A stretch of DNA of 54,594 nucleotides from Dehalococcoidia bacterium (GTDB lineage Bacteria; Chloroflexota; Dehalococcoidia; SM23-28-2; HRBIN24). Under the pieces are notes generated by a model. The model searched no databases and had not been told where the DNA came from. It saw only the letters and a list, made by a program, of their open reading frames with translations. The position numbers were made by a program, and so were the translations under genes. The stretch is taken from contig JANXAP010000025.1 of NCBI GenBank assembly GCA_025062275.1, positions 1-54,594 of the forward strand, given 5' to 3'. Positions 6,881 through 54,594 of the stretch are shown here, piece after piece (the stretch's first letter is position 1; each line of letters opens with the position of its first letter).

Positions 6881-7567
6881 ATGGCCCCCAGGTCTGGAAT
6901 TAGCAGCGACACACCCACTCCTACTGTCGAGGACTACCTGCACGCCATCTACAGCTTGCTGGGCGAGGGGGAAACGGTCTTCTCCGCCCGCCTGGCCCGT
7001 CGCATGAGGGTCACACCGCCCACTGCCTGGGCCACCGTCCAGCGCATGGTCCGCGATGGCCTGGTGACCCTGGACAGCAAGAAGGTGATCCACCTCACCG
7101 AGAAGGGCAAGCGTCTGGCTGAGGACATAGTGCGCCGGCACCGACTGGCGGAGCGCTTCCTGACGGACGTGTTGGGACTGGGCTGGGCCGACTGCCACGA
7201 GGAGGCACACCTGTTCGAGCATGCCCTCACCCCCAGGCTGGAGGAGCGCATCGTAGCCCTGTTGGGCAACCCCACCACCTGCCCCCACGGCAGTCCCATC
7301 CCTGGCTCCGGGGCCACCCTGCCGCCCGACCTGGTCCCCCTGGCCTCTCTGGCCGCAGGGGAGGAGGCCACCATAGAGTTCATCTCGGAGGAGCTCGAGG
7401 AAGACCTTGACCTGCTGCGTTATCTGGAGCGGGGACGTATCATGCCTGGCCACAGGGTGCGGGTGTTGGAGATGGTGCCCCCCAGCGACCTGATGGTGGT
7501 GGAGTCGGACGGGCAGCAGGTGCCCCTGGGGCTGAAGGTGGCGCAGAAGATCCGCGTGCGCCGCTAG
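6881..7567 (+). CDS. DtxR/MntR-family metal-dependent transcriptional regulator
   Basis: A 228-residue regulator starting at ATG 6881, eight bases after AAGGAGG; the GTG at 6872 lies inside that site and is rejected. The N-terminal winged helix (to about residue 75) is followed by a metal-binding dimerisation domain and a C-terminal SH3/FeoA-like domain (about 150-228). Aligned with DtxR, His87, Glu91, His106, Glu113 and His114 match known metal ligands. The position of DtxR Cys102 is His110, and DtxR Met10 is Asp18, as in the MntR EDY motif. Metal choice (Fe or Mn) is therefore uncertain. Plausible targets are itself and the FTR1 operon. Confidence 0.88.
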   Translation: MAPRSGISSDTPTPTVEDYLHAIYSLLGEGETVFSARLARRMRVTPPTAWATVQRMVRDGLVTLDSKKVIHLTEKGKRLAEDIVRRHRLAERFLTDVLGLGWADCHEEAHLFEHALTPRLEERIVALLGNPTTCPHGSPIPGSGATLPPDLVPLASLAAGEEATIEFISEELEEDLDLLRYLERGRIMPGHRVRVLEMVPPSDLMVVESDGQQVPLGLKVAQKIRVRR

Positions 7568-8068: not shown

Positions 8069-9058
8069 ATGCTGACGACGGTCGTAGGACACTACCCGAA
8101 GATCCCCAACCGCCCCAGGCCGGCCCGCCTGCGCCAGGCCATCGCCCGCTACGAGCGGGGCGAGATCTCTCGCCAGGAACTGGCGAGGATCGAGGACGAG
8201 GTGACCATCGAGGTCATCCAGGAGCAGGTCGAGGCCGGCATCGATATTGTCACCGACGGGCAGATACGCTGGGAGGACGACCAGACCTACATCGCCCGCC
8301 GCCTCTCGGGCTTCAACATCAACGGCCTGGTCCGCTACCTGGACACCAACACCTACTTCCGGCAGCCGGTGGTGGTGGGAGAGATCCGGCACCGGGAGAC
8401 CTTCCTGGTCCACGACTGGCGTTTCGCCCAGGAGCATAGCCCCCGCCCGGTCAAGGCCATCGTCACCGGGCCCATCACCCTGGCACGGCTCTCGCAGGAC
8501 GAACACTACCGGGACCACGGCCGCCTGGTGATAGCCCTGGCCGAGGCCCTGGCCCCCGAGGTGAGGGCCCTGGCGGAGGCCGGCGCGCCCATCGTCCAGG
8601 TGAACGAGCCCCTGATCCTCTGGCATCCGGAGGACCTGCCCCTGCTGCGCAGGGCCCTGCAAATCATGCTGGACGGGGTCACTTGCGAGACGGCCCTCTA
8701 CACCTGGTTCGGGAGCATCGAGCGCGTTTACCCCCAGCTCCTGGAGCTGCCCGTGACCACCATCGGCATCGACCTGGTGTCCCAGCCCCGGAACTGGCAG
8801 GTACTGGGCCAGCATACCTTCCCGACCGACAGAAAGCTGGGGGCGGGCATCGTGGACGGACGCAACACCCGCCTGGAATCGGTGGAGGAGATAGTGGCGG
8901 CGGTGCGGCACCTGACCCGCATCGTCCCGCCCGACCGCCTCTACCTGAATCCCAGTTGCGGCCTGGAATACCTGCCGCGGGAGGTGGCCCAGGACAAGCT
9001 GCGCCGCCTGGCCGAGGGTGCCCATGCAGCCCGCCAGGCCCTGGGGGTGGAGGCCTGA
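8069..9058 (+). CDS. MetE C-terminal-like barrel protein lacking the zinc ligands
   Basis: A 329-residue protein of the cobalamin-independent methionine synthase superfamily, containing one barrel, whereas full MetE has two. It keeps the family scaffold (GHYPK start, VTGPITL, NPSCGLEYLP) but differs at key sites. Aligned with the next gene, the Asp of IDEP is Asn179 (VNEP), and the His-x-Cys zinc pair is Tyr211 and Trp213 (ETALYTWFGSIERVYP). Only the final Cys297 is kept. It is thus probably not a standard zinc-dependent methyltransferase on its own. The next gene, two bases on, is an intact paralogue; a heteromeric partner role is inference. Confidence 0.82.
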   Translation: MLTTVVGHYPKIPNRPRPARLRQAIARYERGEISRQELARIEDEVTIEVIQEQVEAGIDIVTDGQIRWEDDQTYIARRLSGFNINGLVRYLDTNTYFRQPVVVGEIRHRETFLVHDWRFAQEHSPRPVKAIVTGPITLARLSQDEHYRDHGRLVIALAEALAPEVRALAEAGAPIVQVNEPLILWHPEDLPLLRRALQIMLDGVTCETALYTWFGSIERVYPQLLELPVTTIGIDLVSQPRNWQVLGQHTFPTDRKLGAGIVDGRNTRLESVEEIVAAVRHLTRIVPPDRLYLNPSCGLEYLPREVAQDKLRRLAEGAHAARQALGVEA

Positions 9059-49325: not shown

Positions 49326-49363
49326 GGGTCTCGTGGCCCATATTTTAGTGGGCCACGAGACCC
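49326..49363. repeat. Perfect 15-bp inverted repeat in the oppD leader
   Basis: GGGTCTCGTGGCCCA (49326-49340) and its exact reverse complement (49349-49363) flank the 8-base loop TATTTTAG. It lies 33 bp upstream of the oppD GTG. It could be an RNA hairpin in the leader, a repressor site, or a miniature transposon trace. No T-tract follows on either strand in a way that suits a terminator. Confidence 0.6.
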
Positions 49364-49490: not shown

Positions 49491-49575
49491 TGGTGGGGAA
49501 GGCGGGACTCGAACCCGCACGCCTTACGGCACGTGATCCTAAGTCACGCTCGTCTACCAGTTCCGACACTTCCCC
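49491..49575 (-). tRNA. tRNA-Leu (anticodon TAG)
   Basis: Minus-strand cloverleaf with acceptor GGGGAAG/CTTCCCC, discriminator A and encoded CCA (49493-49491), anticodon stem CGTGA/TCACG with loop CTTAGGA (anticodon TAG), a long class II variable arm (TGCCGTAAGGCGT), and T-arm GCGGG-TTCGAGT-CCCGC. Confidence 0.95.
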
Positions 49576-49623: not shown

Positions 49624-49699
49624 TGGAGGGCCGCCCGGGAGTCGAACCCGGAACCCGCGGATTAAGAGTCCGCCGCTCTGCCAGTTGAGCTAGCGGCCC
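49624..49699 (-). tRNA. tRNA-Lys (anticodon CTT)
   Basis: Minus-strand cloverleaf with acceptor GGGCCGC/GCGGCCC, D-stem GCTC/GAGC, anticodon stem GCGGA/TCCGC with loop CTCTTAA (anticodon CTT), and T-arm CCGGG-TTCGACT-CCCGG. CCA is encoded (49626-49624). The discriminator reads T, whereas lysine tRNAs usually have A or G there. The integrated element begins beyond the 5' end of this gene. Confidence 0.93.
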
Positions 49700-49815
49700 A
49701 GATACCATTTAGCCCCCTTCGGGCAGCCATTGTCAAGGCGTGACGGGAGGGCCGCAAATGGTTGGAAAATGGTTGGACTGGCCCCGCACGCTCCCGCCAT
49801 GGGAAAGGGGGAGCC

Positions 49816-50865
49816 ATGGGCCGCAGGGCCAACCACGAAGGGACATATGTCCACCGGCGGGGCCGCTGGGAAGCTGCCGTCCGCATCGCTGGCCGCCGTT
49901 ACTGGGTGTCTGGCCGCACCCGGCAGGAGTGCCGGGACAAGCTCCAGGCGTTGCTGCTGCGCCACCAGGCGGGGGAGCTTGCGCCCCCCTCCCGCCTCAC
50001 CCTGGGCGAGTGGTGCCAGCAGTGGCTGGGGCAGGGCAGGTGGCGGCCGTCCACCTTGAGGCGCTACCGGCAGGTGCTGGCCCCGCTGCTGGCGAGGCTG
50101 AGCCACGTGCGCCTGTCCCGTCTTGAACCGTGGCCCATCGCTGCCGTCCTCGCTTCCCTGGACATGGGCGGCCGGAGCAAGGAATTGGCCCACGTGGTGC
50201 TTCACGCCTGCCTCAGCGAGGCAGTGAAGCTGGGCCTAATCGCCACCAACCCCATGTCCAGGGTGCCACGGCCCAGGCACCAGAAGCCTGAGGCGAAAGA
50301 CTGGGGCCTGGAGGACATGCGCCAGTGGCTGCGGGAGGCCCTGGAGGACGCCACGCCCCTGGCCTCCCTGCTCGCACTGATGCTGTTAACCGGCCTCAGG
50401 CCAGGGGAGGCGCTGGGGCTAAGGTGGGATGACATCGACCTAGAGCGTGGCACCCTCACGGTGAGGCGCAGCGTCACCTGGGCAGGGAGCACCTGGCATG
50501 AGGGCAAGCCGAAAACCCGAGCGGGCGAGAGGACAGTAGCCCTCCCGTCCCTGGCGGTGGAGCTGCTAGGGCGGCTGCCCAAAGACTCTGTCCACATCTT
50601 CTGGCAAGAGCGGCCGCCCTACACCAAACGCATCAGCGAGACGATGGCCGCCCTGTGCGAGAGGGCAAATGTCCCCAGGCGCCCCGCCCACTACCTGAGA
50701 CATGCCCACGCCTCCCTCCTAGCTGCCCAGGGTCTGGACGTGAAGTCCCTGCAGCGCAGGCTGGGCCATTCCCAGGCTTCAGTGACGTTGAACGTCTACG
50801 CCCACGCCCTCTCGGAGATGGACCGGAGGGCGGCAGAGCTGGTGGACGAGGCCCTGGCCAAGTAG
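49816..50865 (+). CDS. Tyrosine recombinase (phage-type integrase)
   Basis: A 349-residue integrase from ATG 49816 (GGGGGAG just upstream; a frame to 49762 adds 18 unlikely residues). The N-terminal AP2-like arm-binding strands (GTYVHRRGRWEAAVRIAGRR) precede a SAM-like core-binding domain (about 65-165). Catalytic residues are Arg in TGLRPGEALGLRWDD, Lys in KPKTRAGERTV, His and Arg in HYLRHAHAS, His in LGHSQASVT and Tyr in NVYAHAL. All are present, so it should be active. It is the first gene of the mobile element next to tRNA-Lys. Confidence 0.93.
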   Translation: MGRRANHEGTYVHRRGRWEAAVRIAGRRYWVSGRTRQECRDKLQALLLRHQAGELAPPSRLTLGEWCQQWLGQGRWRPSTLRRYRQVLAPLLARLSHVRLSRLEPWPIAAVLASLDMGGRSKELAHVVLHACLSEAVKLGLIATNPMSRVPRPRHQKPEAKDWGLEDMRQWLREALEDATPLASLLALMLLTGLRPGEALGLRWDDIDLERGTLTVRRSVTWAGSTWHEGKPKTRAGERTVALPSLAVELLGRLPKDSVHIFWQERPPYTKRISETMAALCERANVPRRPAHYLRHAHASLLAAQGLDVKSLQRRLGHSQASVTLNVYAHALSEMDRRAAELVDEALAK

Positions 50866-51229: not shown

Positions 51230-51682
51230 TTGGCGCCTCACAATGATTTTACTGCTACCCGCTCAACAACGCAAGCTTTAACGGTTTACCGCCCGTCACT
51301 GGGGCGGTGGGTCACGGTCGGGAAGCTGGTCCACGTCCACGGCGAGACGGTGCTCGCTGTTCCATATCGGCATAGGCAGCGGCTCGATGGCAGGGTTAGT
51401 CTCCCAGCAGCCGTCTTGCGCTATGCGGCCGAGCAAGGTGCCAGGTCGCTCATCGTCAGGTTCGACGCCGAGAGAAGGGCCCTGCGGCTGCCACTAGCGG
51501 AGGCCTTCCGCCTCGGCAGCCCAGGGACAGTAGATGGGCAGGCTGAGCTATGGCTGCGGCTCGACGACTTTGAGGAGGTGCCGTGGCCAGATTGGCCCTG
51601 GGCCACACGGGAGGTCAGGCTCGGCCCTGGGCCTGAAAATTGGCCTCAGCAACTAGCCCTGGCGTTGGAGGTGGCGGGATGA
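51230..51682 (+). CDS. Unknown mobile-element protein
   Basis: A 150-residue protein from a likely TTG start at 51230, with AAGGGGG about ten bases upstream; the TTG at 51164 lies inside a hairpin and is disfavoured. The sequence alternates short strands and helices (RVSLPAAVLRYAAEQGARSL), and the C-terminal half is rich in Trp, Pro and acidic residues (FEEVPWPDWPWATREVRLG). No family recognised. The stop overlaps the primase-helicase start (ATGA), so it probably belongs to the replication operon. Confidence 0.55.
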   Translation: MAPHNDFTATRSTTQALTVYRPSLGRWVTVGKLVHVHGETVLAVPYRHRQRLDGRVSLPAAVLRYAAEQGARSLIVRFDAERRALRLPLAEAFRLGSPGTVDGQAELWLRLDDFEEVPWPDWPWATREVRLGPGPENWPQQLALALEVAG

Positions 51683-53652
51683 GCACAGCCGCCCCCGACC
51701 GCCTCTCGCTCGTTTTGTCCCGCTTGGAAGAGCTGGGCTGCAGGCCGAGGGGCCGCAACGGAAGCTGGGCTGCGTGTTGCCCCGCCCATGAGGACAAGAG
51801 ACCTTCGCTTAGTCTGCGTGAGGCCGAGGACGGGCGGGTGCTGATTTATTGTCATGCGGGCTGCCGCCCTGAGGCCGTGCTGGAGCGCCTGGGCCTGGGC
51901 TGGGCTGACCTCTTCCCGCCACGGGAACGGCGGAACGGGCACCAGCACCCGGAGAAGGGGGGCCGTGGCCCCGCTGCCGCCGAGAAAGGCCCATCCGGCT
52001 GGCCCGACGAGGACGCTGCCTTCGGTTGGCTGCACAGGAAGTGTGGCGTCCCTAGGGTGATGGCCACCGGCCTGGGCGTCCGCTTCCAGGACGGTGCCCT
52101 CTGCCTGACCTGGCCCGCCATCGCTGCCCGCATGGTGCGCCGTGGCCCCGGCGAGCGCTGGCTGTGGGAGGCGGAGGAGCACGAAGGGCGGCGGCCCGAC
52201 CTTTGGCCCCTGCCCATCTTTCCCCCCCGCACCATCTGGCTGACCGAGGGTGCCACCGACACCCTAGCGCTGCGAGCGGCTGGCCTGCCTGCCTACGCCT
52301 CCGTCAAGGGCGCCTCCCGAGACCTGAGACGGGCCTTCAGGGCCCTGCGGGAGGCGGGCGTGGATGAGGTCGTGTTGGCATTCGACATCGATACCGCCGG
52401 ACGGGACGGTGCCGAGAAGGCGGAGAAGGCGGCGGCCGAGGCGGGGCTGCGGATGCGCCGGTTGGAGCTGCCCCAAGCCCTCGCCTTGGCGGGCGGGAAG
52501 GACATCTGCGACCTTCTGGCCACCCTGGGTGGCAGCCCGAAGCGGTTGCGGGAGGTGGCGGAGGGGCTGGCCCGGGAGGCCCCGGTGCCAGACGAGGGGG
52601 GCCCGTTTGGTTTCGTTCCAACTATATATAGGGCCGTTGGAACGAAACGAGAAGCAAGGGCGGCCGAGCTGCAAGCGAGAGCGAAGGAGGGCGGGGCGAG
52701 CGTGGCCCTGCCCTCTCTCCCCCTCCTGGGACAGGGCGGCGTCATCCTCAAGGGCCTCTCCCACCTCCTCTCCGGCTACCCCAAAGCGGGTAAGACAGAG
52801 CTTTTGGCCCGGGCGGTAGCGGAGTGGCAGGGCGAGACGGTGCTGTGGCTCACGGAGGAGCCCGAGTCCATCTGGGAGGCCAGGCTAGCGAGGCTGCCCG
52901 AGAGCTATTCCCACGTCACCCTCTACTTCGCCCTGGGGTGTCGGCGAGAGGAGCTGCTGGAACGCATCGCCGGAGGGGACGAGACGGTGGTAATCCTCGA
53001 CACATCCAAACTGCTGGGGCTCGAGGACACCAACGATGCCGCCGAGGTGACCAGGGTATTGACCCCCCTCATCGCCACCTGCCGAGAGCGGGGCAAGACA
53101 CTCGTCCTCGTCCACCACGAGAGGAAAGGCGGCGGCCAGCACGGAGAAGGCATCAGCGGTTCCCATGCCTTCCTCGGCCTGGTAGACGTAGCCTTGGAGC
53201 TTCTTCGTGACGATAAGTCCCCCAACCGTCGCCTCCTACGAGGCTATGGGCGAGTAGTCCCCATCCGTGAGCTCGCCTACGAGATGGGTGAGGACGGCTC
53301 CCTGCTGGCCCTGGGTGACCCCACGGCCTTGGCCCTCCTGGCAGTGCAGGAGAGAGCAAGGGCGCTCCTGACCGAGGAGTGGCAGACCTTAGGGGACATC
53401 ATGGCGGCTATGGGCGACCCCAAGCCCTCGGACGAGCAAGTAAGGCGAGCGCTCAACGCCCTGGTGGAGGGGGGACTGGCCGAGCGAGACCCGCCGCCTG
53501 GCGTGAAGGGGAACCGTGCCCACCGGTGGCGTCTCCGGTTCGGTTTCGTTCCAACGGCCCAATCTTTAATTGGAACGAAACCAAACGACGGCCGCCCCGG
53601 GGCGGGCGAGGCGGATGTGGTGTTTGAGCCAGAGGAGGGCGCAGCGGCATGA
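51679..53652 (+). CDS. Primase-helicase of a mobile element, with two in-frame palindromic insertions
   Basis: A 657-residue replication protein. In order: a CHC2-type zinc finger (ACCPAHEDKRPSLSL, then YCHAGC, residues 30-60), a TOPRIM domain (LTEGATDTLALRAAG, then VVLAFDIDTAGRDGAEKA, about 190-250), a RecA-like ATPase with Walker A LSGYPKAGKTELLA (about residue 365) and Walker B VVILDTSKLL, HHERKGGG, then a winged-helix-like end. The peptides FGFVPT-x6-GTK (about 310-323) and FGFVPT-x6-GTK (about 620-633) are encoded by two DNA stem-loops with the same arms. It would prime and unwind DNA in element replication. Confidence 0.85.
   Translation: MSTAAPDRLSLVLSRLEELGCRPRGRNGSWAACCPAHEDKRPSLSLREAEDGRVLIYCHAGCRPEAVLERLGLGWADLFPPRERRNGHQHPEKGGRGPAAAEKGPSGWPDEDAAFGWLHRKCGVPRVMATGLGVRFQDGALCLTWPAIAARMVRRGPGERWLWEAEEHEGRRPDLWPLPIFPPRTIWLTEGATDTLALRAAGLPAYASVKGASRDLRRAFRALREAGVDEVVLAFDIDTAGRDGAEKAEKAAAEAGLRMRRLELPQALALAGGKDICDLLATLGGSPKRLREVAEGLAREAPVPDEGGPFGFVPTIYRAVGTKREARAAELQARAKEGGASVALPSLPLLGQGGVILKGLSHLLSGYPKAGKTELLARAVAEWQGETVLWLTEEPESIWEARLARLPESYSHVTLYFALGCRREELLERIAGGDETVVILDTSKLLGLEDTNDAAEVTRVLTPLIATCRERGKTLVLVHHERKGGGQHGEGISGSHAFLGLVDVALELLRDDKSPNRRLLRGYGRVVPIRELAYEMGEDGSLLALGDPTALALLAVQERARALLTEEWQTLGDIMAAMGDPKPSDEQVRRALNALVEGGLAERDPPPGVKGNRAHRWRLRFGFVPTAQSLIGTKPNDGRPGAGEADVVFEPEEGAAA
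52609..52648. repeat. In-frame palindromic element, copy 1
   Basis: Perfect 13-bp arms GTTTCGTTCCAAC (52610-52622) and GTTGGAACGAAAC (52636-52648) around the loop TATATATAGGGCC. It sits between the TOPRIM and ATPase parts of the primase-helicase and is read in frame. Confidence 0.9.
53542..53582. repeat. In-frame palindromic element, copy 2
   Basis: Perfect 13-bp arms GGTTTCGTTCCAA (53542-53554) and TTGGAACGAAACC (53570-53582) around a 15-base loop. The 12-bp arm core GTTTCGTTCCAA is identical to copy 1, as is the reading frame. It lies near the C-terminus of the primase-helicase. Confidence 0.9.
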
Positions 53653-54246: not shown

Positions 54247-54594
54247 CTGTGCCTGTGCTCCCGCCTCTCAGGGCCCGTCGCCTCAACGTGGCGGGGCAAC
54301 GCCTCTACCAGGTGGAAGGGGCGCTGTACCCCTCGGTGACTACGATTCTGGCGGTGGTGGCCAAACCCAACCTAGCGGCCTGGGCACGGCGCACAACGTT
54401 GGCTGCGGTAAGGGAGATGCTGGAGGACGGCCTAGACATCGACCAGGCGCTGACCCTCGCAGCGGAAGAGCCAGAGAGGGTGCGGGATGCGGCTGCCACC
54501 AGGGGCACAGCTATCCACGATGCGGTTGCCGCCGCCCTCGCTGGCGGCCCCTATCCGCCAGAGGCCGAACCCTACGTCAGGGCGGCCCTGGGCT
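54243..54594 (+). CDS. N-terminal part of a PD-(D/E)XK-type exonuclease (cut by window edge)
   Basis: 117 residues are visible from ATG 54243, which overlaps the zinc-ribbon stop (ATGA). The segment LYPSVTTILAVVAKPNLAAW, followed by a helix and ATRGTAIHDAVAAALAGG, matches the N-terminus of Cas4/RecB-like and phage PD-(D/E)XK nucleases, in which the conserved GxxxH helps bind metal. The catalytic D-ExK part lies beyond the edge. In the element it may serve recombination with the replication genes. Confidence 0.65.
   Translation, partial: MTVPVLPPLRARRLNVAGQRLYQVEGALYPSVTTILAVVAKPNLAAWARRTTLAAVREMLEDGLDIDQALTLAAEEPERVRDAAATRGTAIHDAVAAALAGGPYPPEAEPYVRAALG

Follow-up and report, generated by a model that had tools for sequence, protein, structure and literature searches.

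A fused primase-helicase gene near the 3' end of the window (by which we mean the whole 54,594-nt stretch of DNA that was analysed) contains two translated DNA hairpins in mutually inverted orientation. By analogy with known replicons, we consider it reasonably probable that this pair is an intragenic ssi-like replication origin, or priming pair, of a small tRNA-integrating element. The proposal draws on the inversion of the pair, the covariation of the stems, their restriction to this gene, the element-specific arms shared by the copies, and the RepA-type helicase encoded by the gene.

The integrated element and its two hairpins

The 3' end of the window is an integrated element, with tRNA genes, a tyrosine integrase gene, an ORF of 150-172 aa and the primase-helicase gene (Table 1). 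The tRNA-Lys gene is its likely integration site, since complete relatives carry duplicated tRNA ends. The primase-helicase is 657 aa long when counted from the ATG at 51679, and its ORF is also open from a TTG at 51640. At the level of sequence, the sole PDB match of the helicase module was RSF1010 RepA (1g8y, E 4.5e-4). The AlphaFold model, built from three sequences, was poor overall (mean pLDDT 48) and served only for the contrast between disordered and ordered regions; in this low-confidence model, the peptides encoded by the hairpins fall in linkers that are disordered or poorly modelled.

Table 1. Features of the element in the window, and hairpins of related elements. Positions are those of the window unless a locus is named.
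Feature	Position	Strand	Description
tRNA-Leu	49491-49575		tRNA gene of the element locus
tRNA-Lys	49624-49699	-	ARAGORN; likely integration site, window side
Tyrosine integrase of the element	49762-50865	+	Pfam PF00589, E 2.3e-22; PHROG integrase
Fused primase-helicase gene	51679-53652	+	Zn-ribbon/Toprim/AAA_25; PHROG DNA primase/helicase
Toprim primase domain	52231-52515	+	Pfam PF13155, E 5.6e-11
Hairpin W1	52604-52648	-	Palindrome and CAAACG 3' flank; reversed; linker before helicase; encodes GFVPTIYRAVGTK
RepA(RSF1010)-type RecA helicase module, C-terminal winged helix	52651-53535	+	PF13481 AAA_25, E 1.4e-13
Predicted winged helix-turn-helix, module end	53320-53490	+	AlphaFold residues 548-604, pLDDT ~65-87; weak HTH_IclR match
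Hairpin W2	53543-53587	+	Palindrome and CAAACG 3' flank; forward; C-terminal tail; encodes GFVPTAQSLIGTKP
G110 hairpins, arm AAAAAAGTTCCAAC	L193: linker 7167-7210, tail 8120-8169		Loops identical when inverted
G110 type-B hairpins, arm GGTTTCCGCCCA			Two further linker copies
G106 hairpins, arm ATTCATTCTGACG	L190: 1261-1304 and 2251-2293		
G532 hairpins, arm CCAACAAC			Two elements, five copies, all within the two genes
G500 hairpins, arm GCTACCAC			Two copies, both inside the gene
G658 hairpins, arm CCTCCAAC			One copy in a helicase-domain loop, one in the tail
Sister element, contig C34 of the window's genome			Two copies side by side in the tail

The two palindromes, with arms GTTTCGTTCCAA/TTGGAACGAAAC, are 39 nt each and span 52610-52648 (W1) and 53543-53581 (W2). 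As the preliminary description had stated, they lie 933 bp apart in one reading frame and flank the AAA_25/RecA module. Both had been called perfect over 13 bp, which holds for W1, and for W2 only if one outer G-C pair is counted, the W2 stem being 17 bp with one mismatch. The peptide given as FGFVPT-x6-GTK is in fact FGFVPT-x5-GTK, and the loops, described as different, correspond once one copy is inverted: W2 is the reverse complement of W1, asymmetric loop included. A repeat finder returned the two intervals of Table 1 as a 45-nt inverted repeat, 91% complementary, that takes in the loop and the CAAACG flank. Loop similarity between W1 and W2 had a p of ~2e-4 in inverted orientation, P values throughout the hairpin analysis being derived from simple shuffles, and there was none in direct orientation. 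Four half-sites were counted in the window when up to two mismatches were allowed, for 0.61 expected. All tested hairpins were stable as folded single-stranded DNA (z -2.9 to -7.3).

Other features of the locus were recorded. A tandem of two AAATGGTTGGA copies at 49756-49777, where the integrase ORF begins, may represent integrase arm sites. The interval that separates the tRNA genes from a transporter gene holds a perfect 15-bp palindrome (GGGTCTCGTGGCCCA/TGGGCCACGAGACCC, 8-nt loop) at 49326-49363. The 141 terminal bases of the window (54454-54594) are identical to G000:C34:49859-49999, the end of locus L141, and form an assembly fork; this shared contig end was found in C25 and C34 only, the elements of both converge there, and the sequence on which they converge is not among the contigs. 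The sister element lies at a predicted selenocysteine tRNA gene (L141 14878-14974).

Confinement to primase-helicase genes

The preliminary description had suggested that the palindromes may form a dispersed family comparable to the Rickettsia palindromic elements, had noted that a core occurring nowhere else would not be such a family, and had advised searches of whole genomes and of homologues. The advice was apt, and both searches were run. In the window's own genome of 1.8 Mb, no copies of the arm core were found beyond W1 and W2, and the suggested family thus fails the test proposed with it, the core being present in one gene. Among 197 related genomes, a looser pattern retrieved the same 39-nt element in G002 only, where a homologous gene of 54% aa identity holds three copies, and a gene-tail fragment on the edge of a contig holds a fourth; a lone match in G030, 50 nt long, looks like a chance one. 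A scan of 393 genomes of the class, with a covariance model built from an alignment of ten hairpin copies, gave nothing beyond the already known primase-helicase genes. Across the whole genomes of G000, G002, G532 and G500, no copy lies outside such genes, one of those in G002 being the gene-tail fragment. No hit to the strict hairpin pattern was obtained in viral contigs, and with the loose pattern the viral matches listed were apparently chance ones. Homologues from phages, plasmids, viruses and other phyla were distant, and no comparable hairpin pair was seen among those scanned. Trusted Rfam matches were tRNAs only. The searched genomes are in many cases fragmentary, and some of the loci abut the end of a contig.

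A selfish palindromic element of the Rickettsia kind, dispersed among tolerant sites, would fit the in-frame position in linkers, and the G658 copy does resemble an insert in a helicase loop. We nevertheless regard it as very unlikely, because whole genomes hold no copies outside primase-helicase genes, which refutes dispersal, and because each element has its own sequence and the positions are equivalent. Rickettsia palindromic elements and the coding palindromes of Nematomorpha mitochondria likewise lie in frame inside genes and are translated (PMC2229807, PMC6649704), but they are longer and occupy many unrelated genes, whereas an inverted pair in one gene family is found here. The present hairpins measure ~30-52 nt, as compared with 105-146 bp for the Rickettsia elements.

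As a separate observation, locus L138 of G002:C25 contains at 400-807 an in-frame array of a ~12-nt repeat (AAACTCCGGACA, peptide TPDK) that resembles coding iterons, and the ORF of this array starts with a tail hairpin.

Inverted pairs in related elements

Hairpin-bearing relatives of the primase-helicase were found in six other genomes, which come from several families and extend to at least one further class of the phylum. The carriers are C18 (L005), G110 (L193), G106 (L190), G532 (L226, L229), G500 (L228), G658 (L227) and, in the window's own genome, the sister element C34 (L203). These genes carry two or three hairpins. Most of the hairpins sit in the linker that precedes the RecA-type helicase module or in the C-terminal tail, and their arms are specific to the element and common to the copies within a gene. 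Shared-arm pairs were essentially absent from Markov-shuffled sequence, the null for G014a being unusable. More divergent primase-helicases (G344, G014, G040 and G021) have no hairpins, which counts against the origin reading. In G110:C7 (L193 4498-8168), a Toprim-helicase gene truncated in its helicase runs into a helicase gene of the prim-pol type; the joined genes are two primase-helicase types, each with its own hairpin type.

The hairpin loop is asymmetric, its TA-rich letters adjoining the 3' arm, and loop similarity can be used to orient the copies. They are mutually inverted in the window, C18, G110 and C34, with weaker support in G106 and in both G532 elements; the G658 pair was oriented by the loop motif alone, and no call was made for G500. 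In every callable case, the first copy is reversed and the second forward. Spacing within pairs ranges from adjacent to ~990 bp, which again counts against an origin. Since the C34 pair is adjacent in the tail, and one G658 copy sits inside the helicase domain, bracketing of the helicase is not the conserved property; this property is the inverted pair, with one hairpin on each strand.

The polarity also bears on a role in the mRNA, as signals for transcript processing, pausing or termination at domain borders and at the gene end. Such signals would agree with the sites, one being a domain border and the other the gene end, and the tail hairpin of G110 ends in a terminator-like T-run. However, neither pausing nor termination needs the same arms at two sites per gene, the opposite-strand asymmetry of the loops would make one copy antisense in the mRNA, and no Rfam family was matched at a trusted score, so that we hold this role to be improbable.

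Constraint on DNA rather than on the peptide

In simulations with synonymous codons, the observed pairing was reached in 0.7% of recodings for W1 and 0.5% for W2, and a repeated peptide is therefore insufficient as an explanation. Taken copy by copy, the matching fraction ranged from 0.015 to 9% of draws. The peptide of the G002 linker copy is almost that of the window, but the G002 tail copies use a different frame, which gives PFRFDGQSINxNETEP; across all elements, the hairpins occupy all three reading frames. The palindrome is kept in homologues with other peptides (PFRFDG..NRNETE, KTNNIGTSVVGF and KKVPTGYPYSGNFF).

Covariation was measured on an alignment of ten hairpin copies. Both sides had changed in 11 of the 14 stem pairs, 92% of the cells were paired, and none of 500 shuffles was as good. 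The covariation score was 0.60, against 0.18 in shuffles; it is not a probability, the rows being kin and the structure drawn from the same sequences. When the partner column was slid by one, pairing fell to 58% or less. Covarying stems, differing peptides and the use of three frames together indicate that the constraint acts on DNA, and the view of the preliminary description that the palindrome is a DNA-level feature, not a protein motif, is borne out by the frame and peptide changes and by the covariation. An ordinary duplicated protein motif, FGFVPT...GTK, had in its favour a peptide common to W1 and W2 and nearly so to the C18 linker; it is refuted by the homologues that keep the palindrome with other peptides and frames, and has practically no probability left.

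Template switching also yields covarying stems, and could have perfected neutral quasi-palindromes in freely varying linkers. The sites do lie in regions modelled as disordered, in a model of low confidence. But this would leave unexplained that two sites so far apart share their arms, that the loops are inverted, and that the hairpins occupy equivalent sites in several families and are absent from the rest of the genomes, and we give little credit to a neutral origin.

Mosaic history of the helicase cassette

The window gene and C18 share 70% DNA identity from 52565 to 53581. The window gene is 73% identical to the C34 element up to residue ~90, and 77% identical from 53618 onwards. The match to C18 ends, and that to C34 resumes, in such a way that the breakpoints fall at the palindromes. 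From these comparisons, the helicase cassette with both palindromes is different in origin from its surroundings. A swap of the helicase module, as suggested earlier, is thus partly upheld as history, the window gene matching one relative in the stretch that the palindromes enclose and a different one downstream of it, and to a lesser degree as the function of the palindromes. We see exchange as following from the self-contained nature of the replication cassette and not as the function, because in C34 and G658 the hairpins do not flank the module.

Palindromes acting as recombination sites, which would delimit a helicase cassette for a recombinase to swap or invert, would account for the coincidence of the C18 and C34 breakpoints with the palindromes, and for the 45-nt inverted repeats that bracket the module. 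Against them stand the two placements just mentioned and the fact that an integrase is the only recombinase present, with att and end repeats unlike the hairpin arms. Moreover, the reading frame should not survive an inversion, and no invertase was detected. We consider recombination sites unlikely.

The ends of the elements were delimited in G532 and G500 by exact duplications of 74-83 nt that include tRNA genes. The complete elements, L230 and L231 (G532) and L232 (G500), measure 4445, 4676 and ~6590 bp, and code for the integrase, the primase-helicase and small ORFs. Close to the ends of the elements are short direct repeats of the TTGACAGCA type, which resemble arm sites of the integrase. 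The hairpins were also considered as integrase sites; this was rejected, as both the tRNA att repeats and the short end repeats are unlike the hairpin arms.

A candidate origin and its precedents

Four known systems were compared with the hairpin pair. Replication of RSF1010 starts at ssiA and ssiB, two hairpins of ~40 nt, one per strand, which RepA exposes and the primase uses (PMC4434180, PMC6925257, PMC4234260). The present elements resemble its oriV in having hairpins of that size on each strand, a RepA-family helicase (PF13481) and a primase in the same replication module; the helicase, a hexamer in RSF1010, is assigned here by its sequence. They differ in that RSF1010 has an AEP-type RepB' primase, sites located in oriV together with iterons, and a separate RepC, whereas here a Toprim primase is fused to the helicase, and the sites are intragenic with longer stems. 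Neither the window's replication module nor the G532 element showed an iteron array, and no RepC-like initiator was found. Given the mismatch in primase type and iterons, we do not place these elements in the RSF1010 family, and with a Toprim rather than an AEP primase, the hairpins need not be recognised in the RSF1010 manner.

Plasmid pRN1 requires a stem-loop adjoining its primase-helicase-wHTH gene, conserved in structure and not in sequence; a plasmid with an altered stem replicated only once symmetry had been restored, and a stem-loop origin of this type was proposed also for Bordetella phage BIP-1 (PMC4234260). A stem conserved by structure beside such a gene is what we find, as judged by the covariation and the predicted wHTH, although pRN1 has a single stem-loop of ~100 nt downstream of the gene, an AEP primase and an SF3 helicase, in place of Toprim and AAA_25. 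In phage lambda, ori lies inside gene O, the coding sequence of its initiator (PMC3349717), but is made of clustered iterons and an AT-rich stretch rather than an inverted hairpin pair. Finally, the origins of SaPI and SCCmec lie directly after the helicase gene and are bound by the C-terminal domain of the helicase (PMC7581432); these are also integrative elements whose origin is linked to the 3' terminus of a helicase gene, but their iterons are intergenic.

These precedents, the stable folding of the hairpins and the linker position of their peptides led us to propose an intragenic ssi-like origin pair, and elements of 4.4-6.6 kb with few genes leave little room for an origin elsewhere. Under this proposal, the element would first excise, and its protein, with a winged helix and a RepA-type helicase, would bind and open the region. 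Each opened strand would expose one hairpin, of which the asymmetric TA-rich loop and the 3' flank would mark the primase start, and synthesis would run from one site per strand. Protein binding, strand opening, priming and a domain recognising the hairpin are steps that we infer. Somewhat more tentatively, these may be an undescribed class of very small integrative elements (~4.4-6.6 kb) whose whole bidirectional origin consists of an inverted pair of translated hairpins within the replication gene; as the arms diverge in step in both copies, each element would then have a private origin specificity, able to travel with the helicase cassette.

If the pair is indeed an origin, the palindromes at domain borders would be explained without a mobile palindrome family, and bacteria would offer a clear example of dual coding, for a protein linker and a DNA hairpin. 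The origins of such small elements could then be read straight from the primase-helicase gene. Initiator and start signals would reside in one gene, so that a single recombination event would move a complete replicon specificity.
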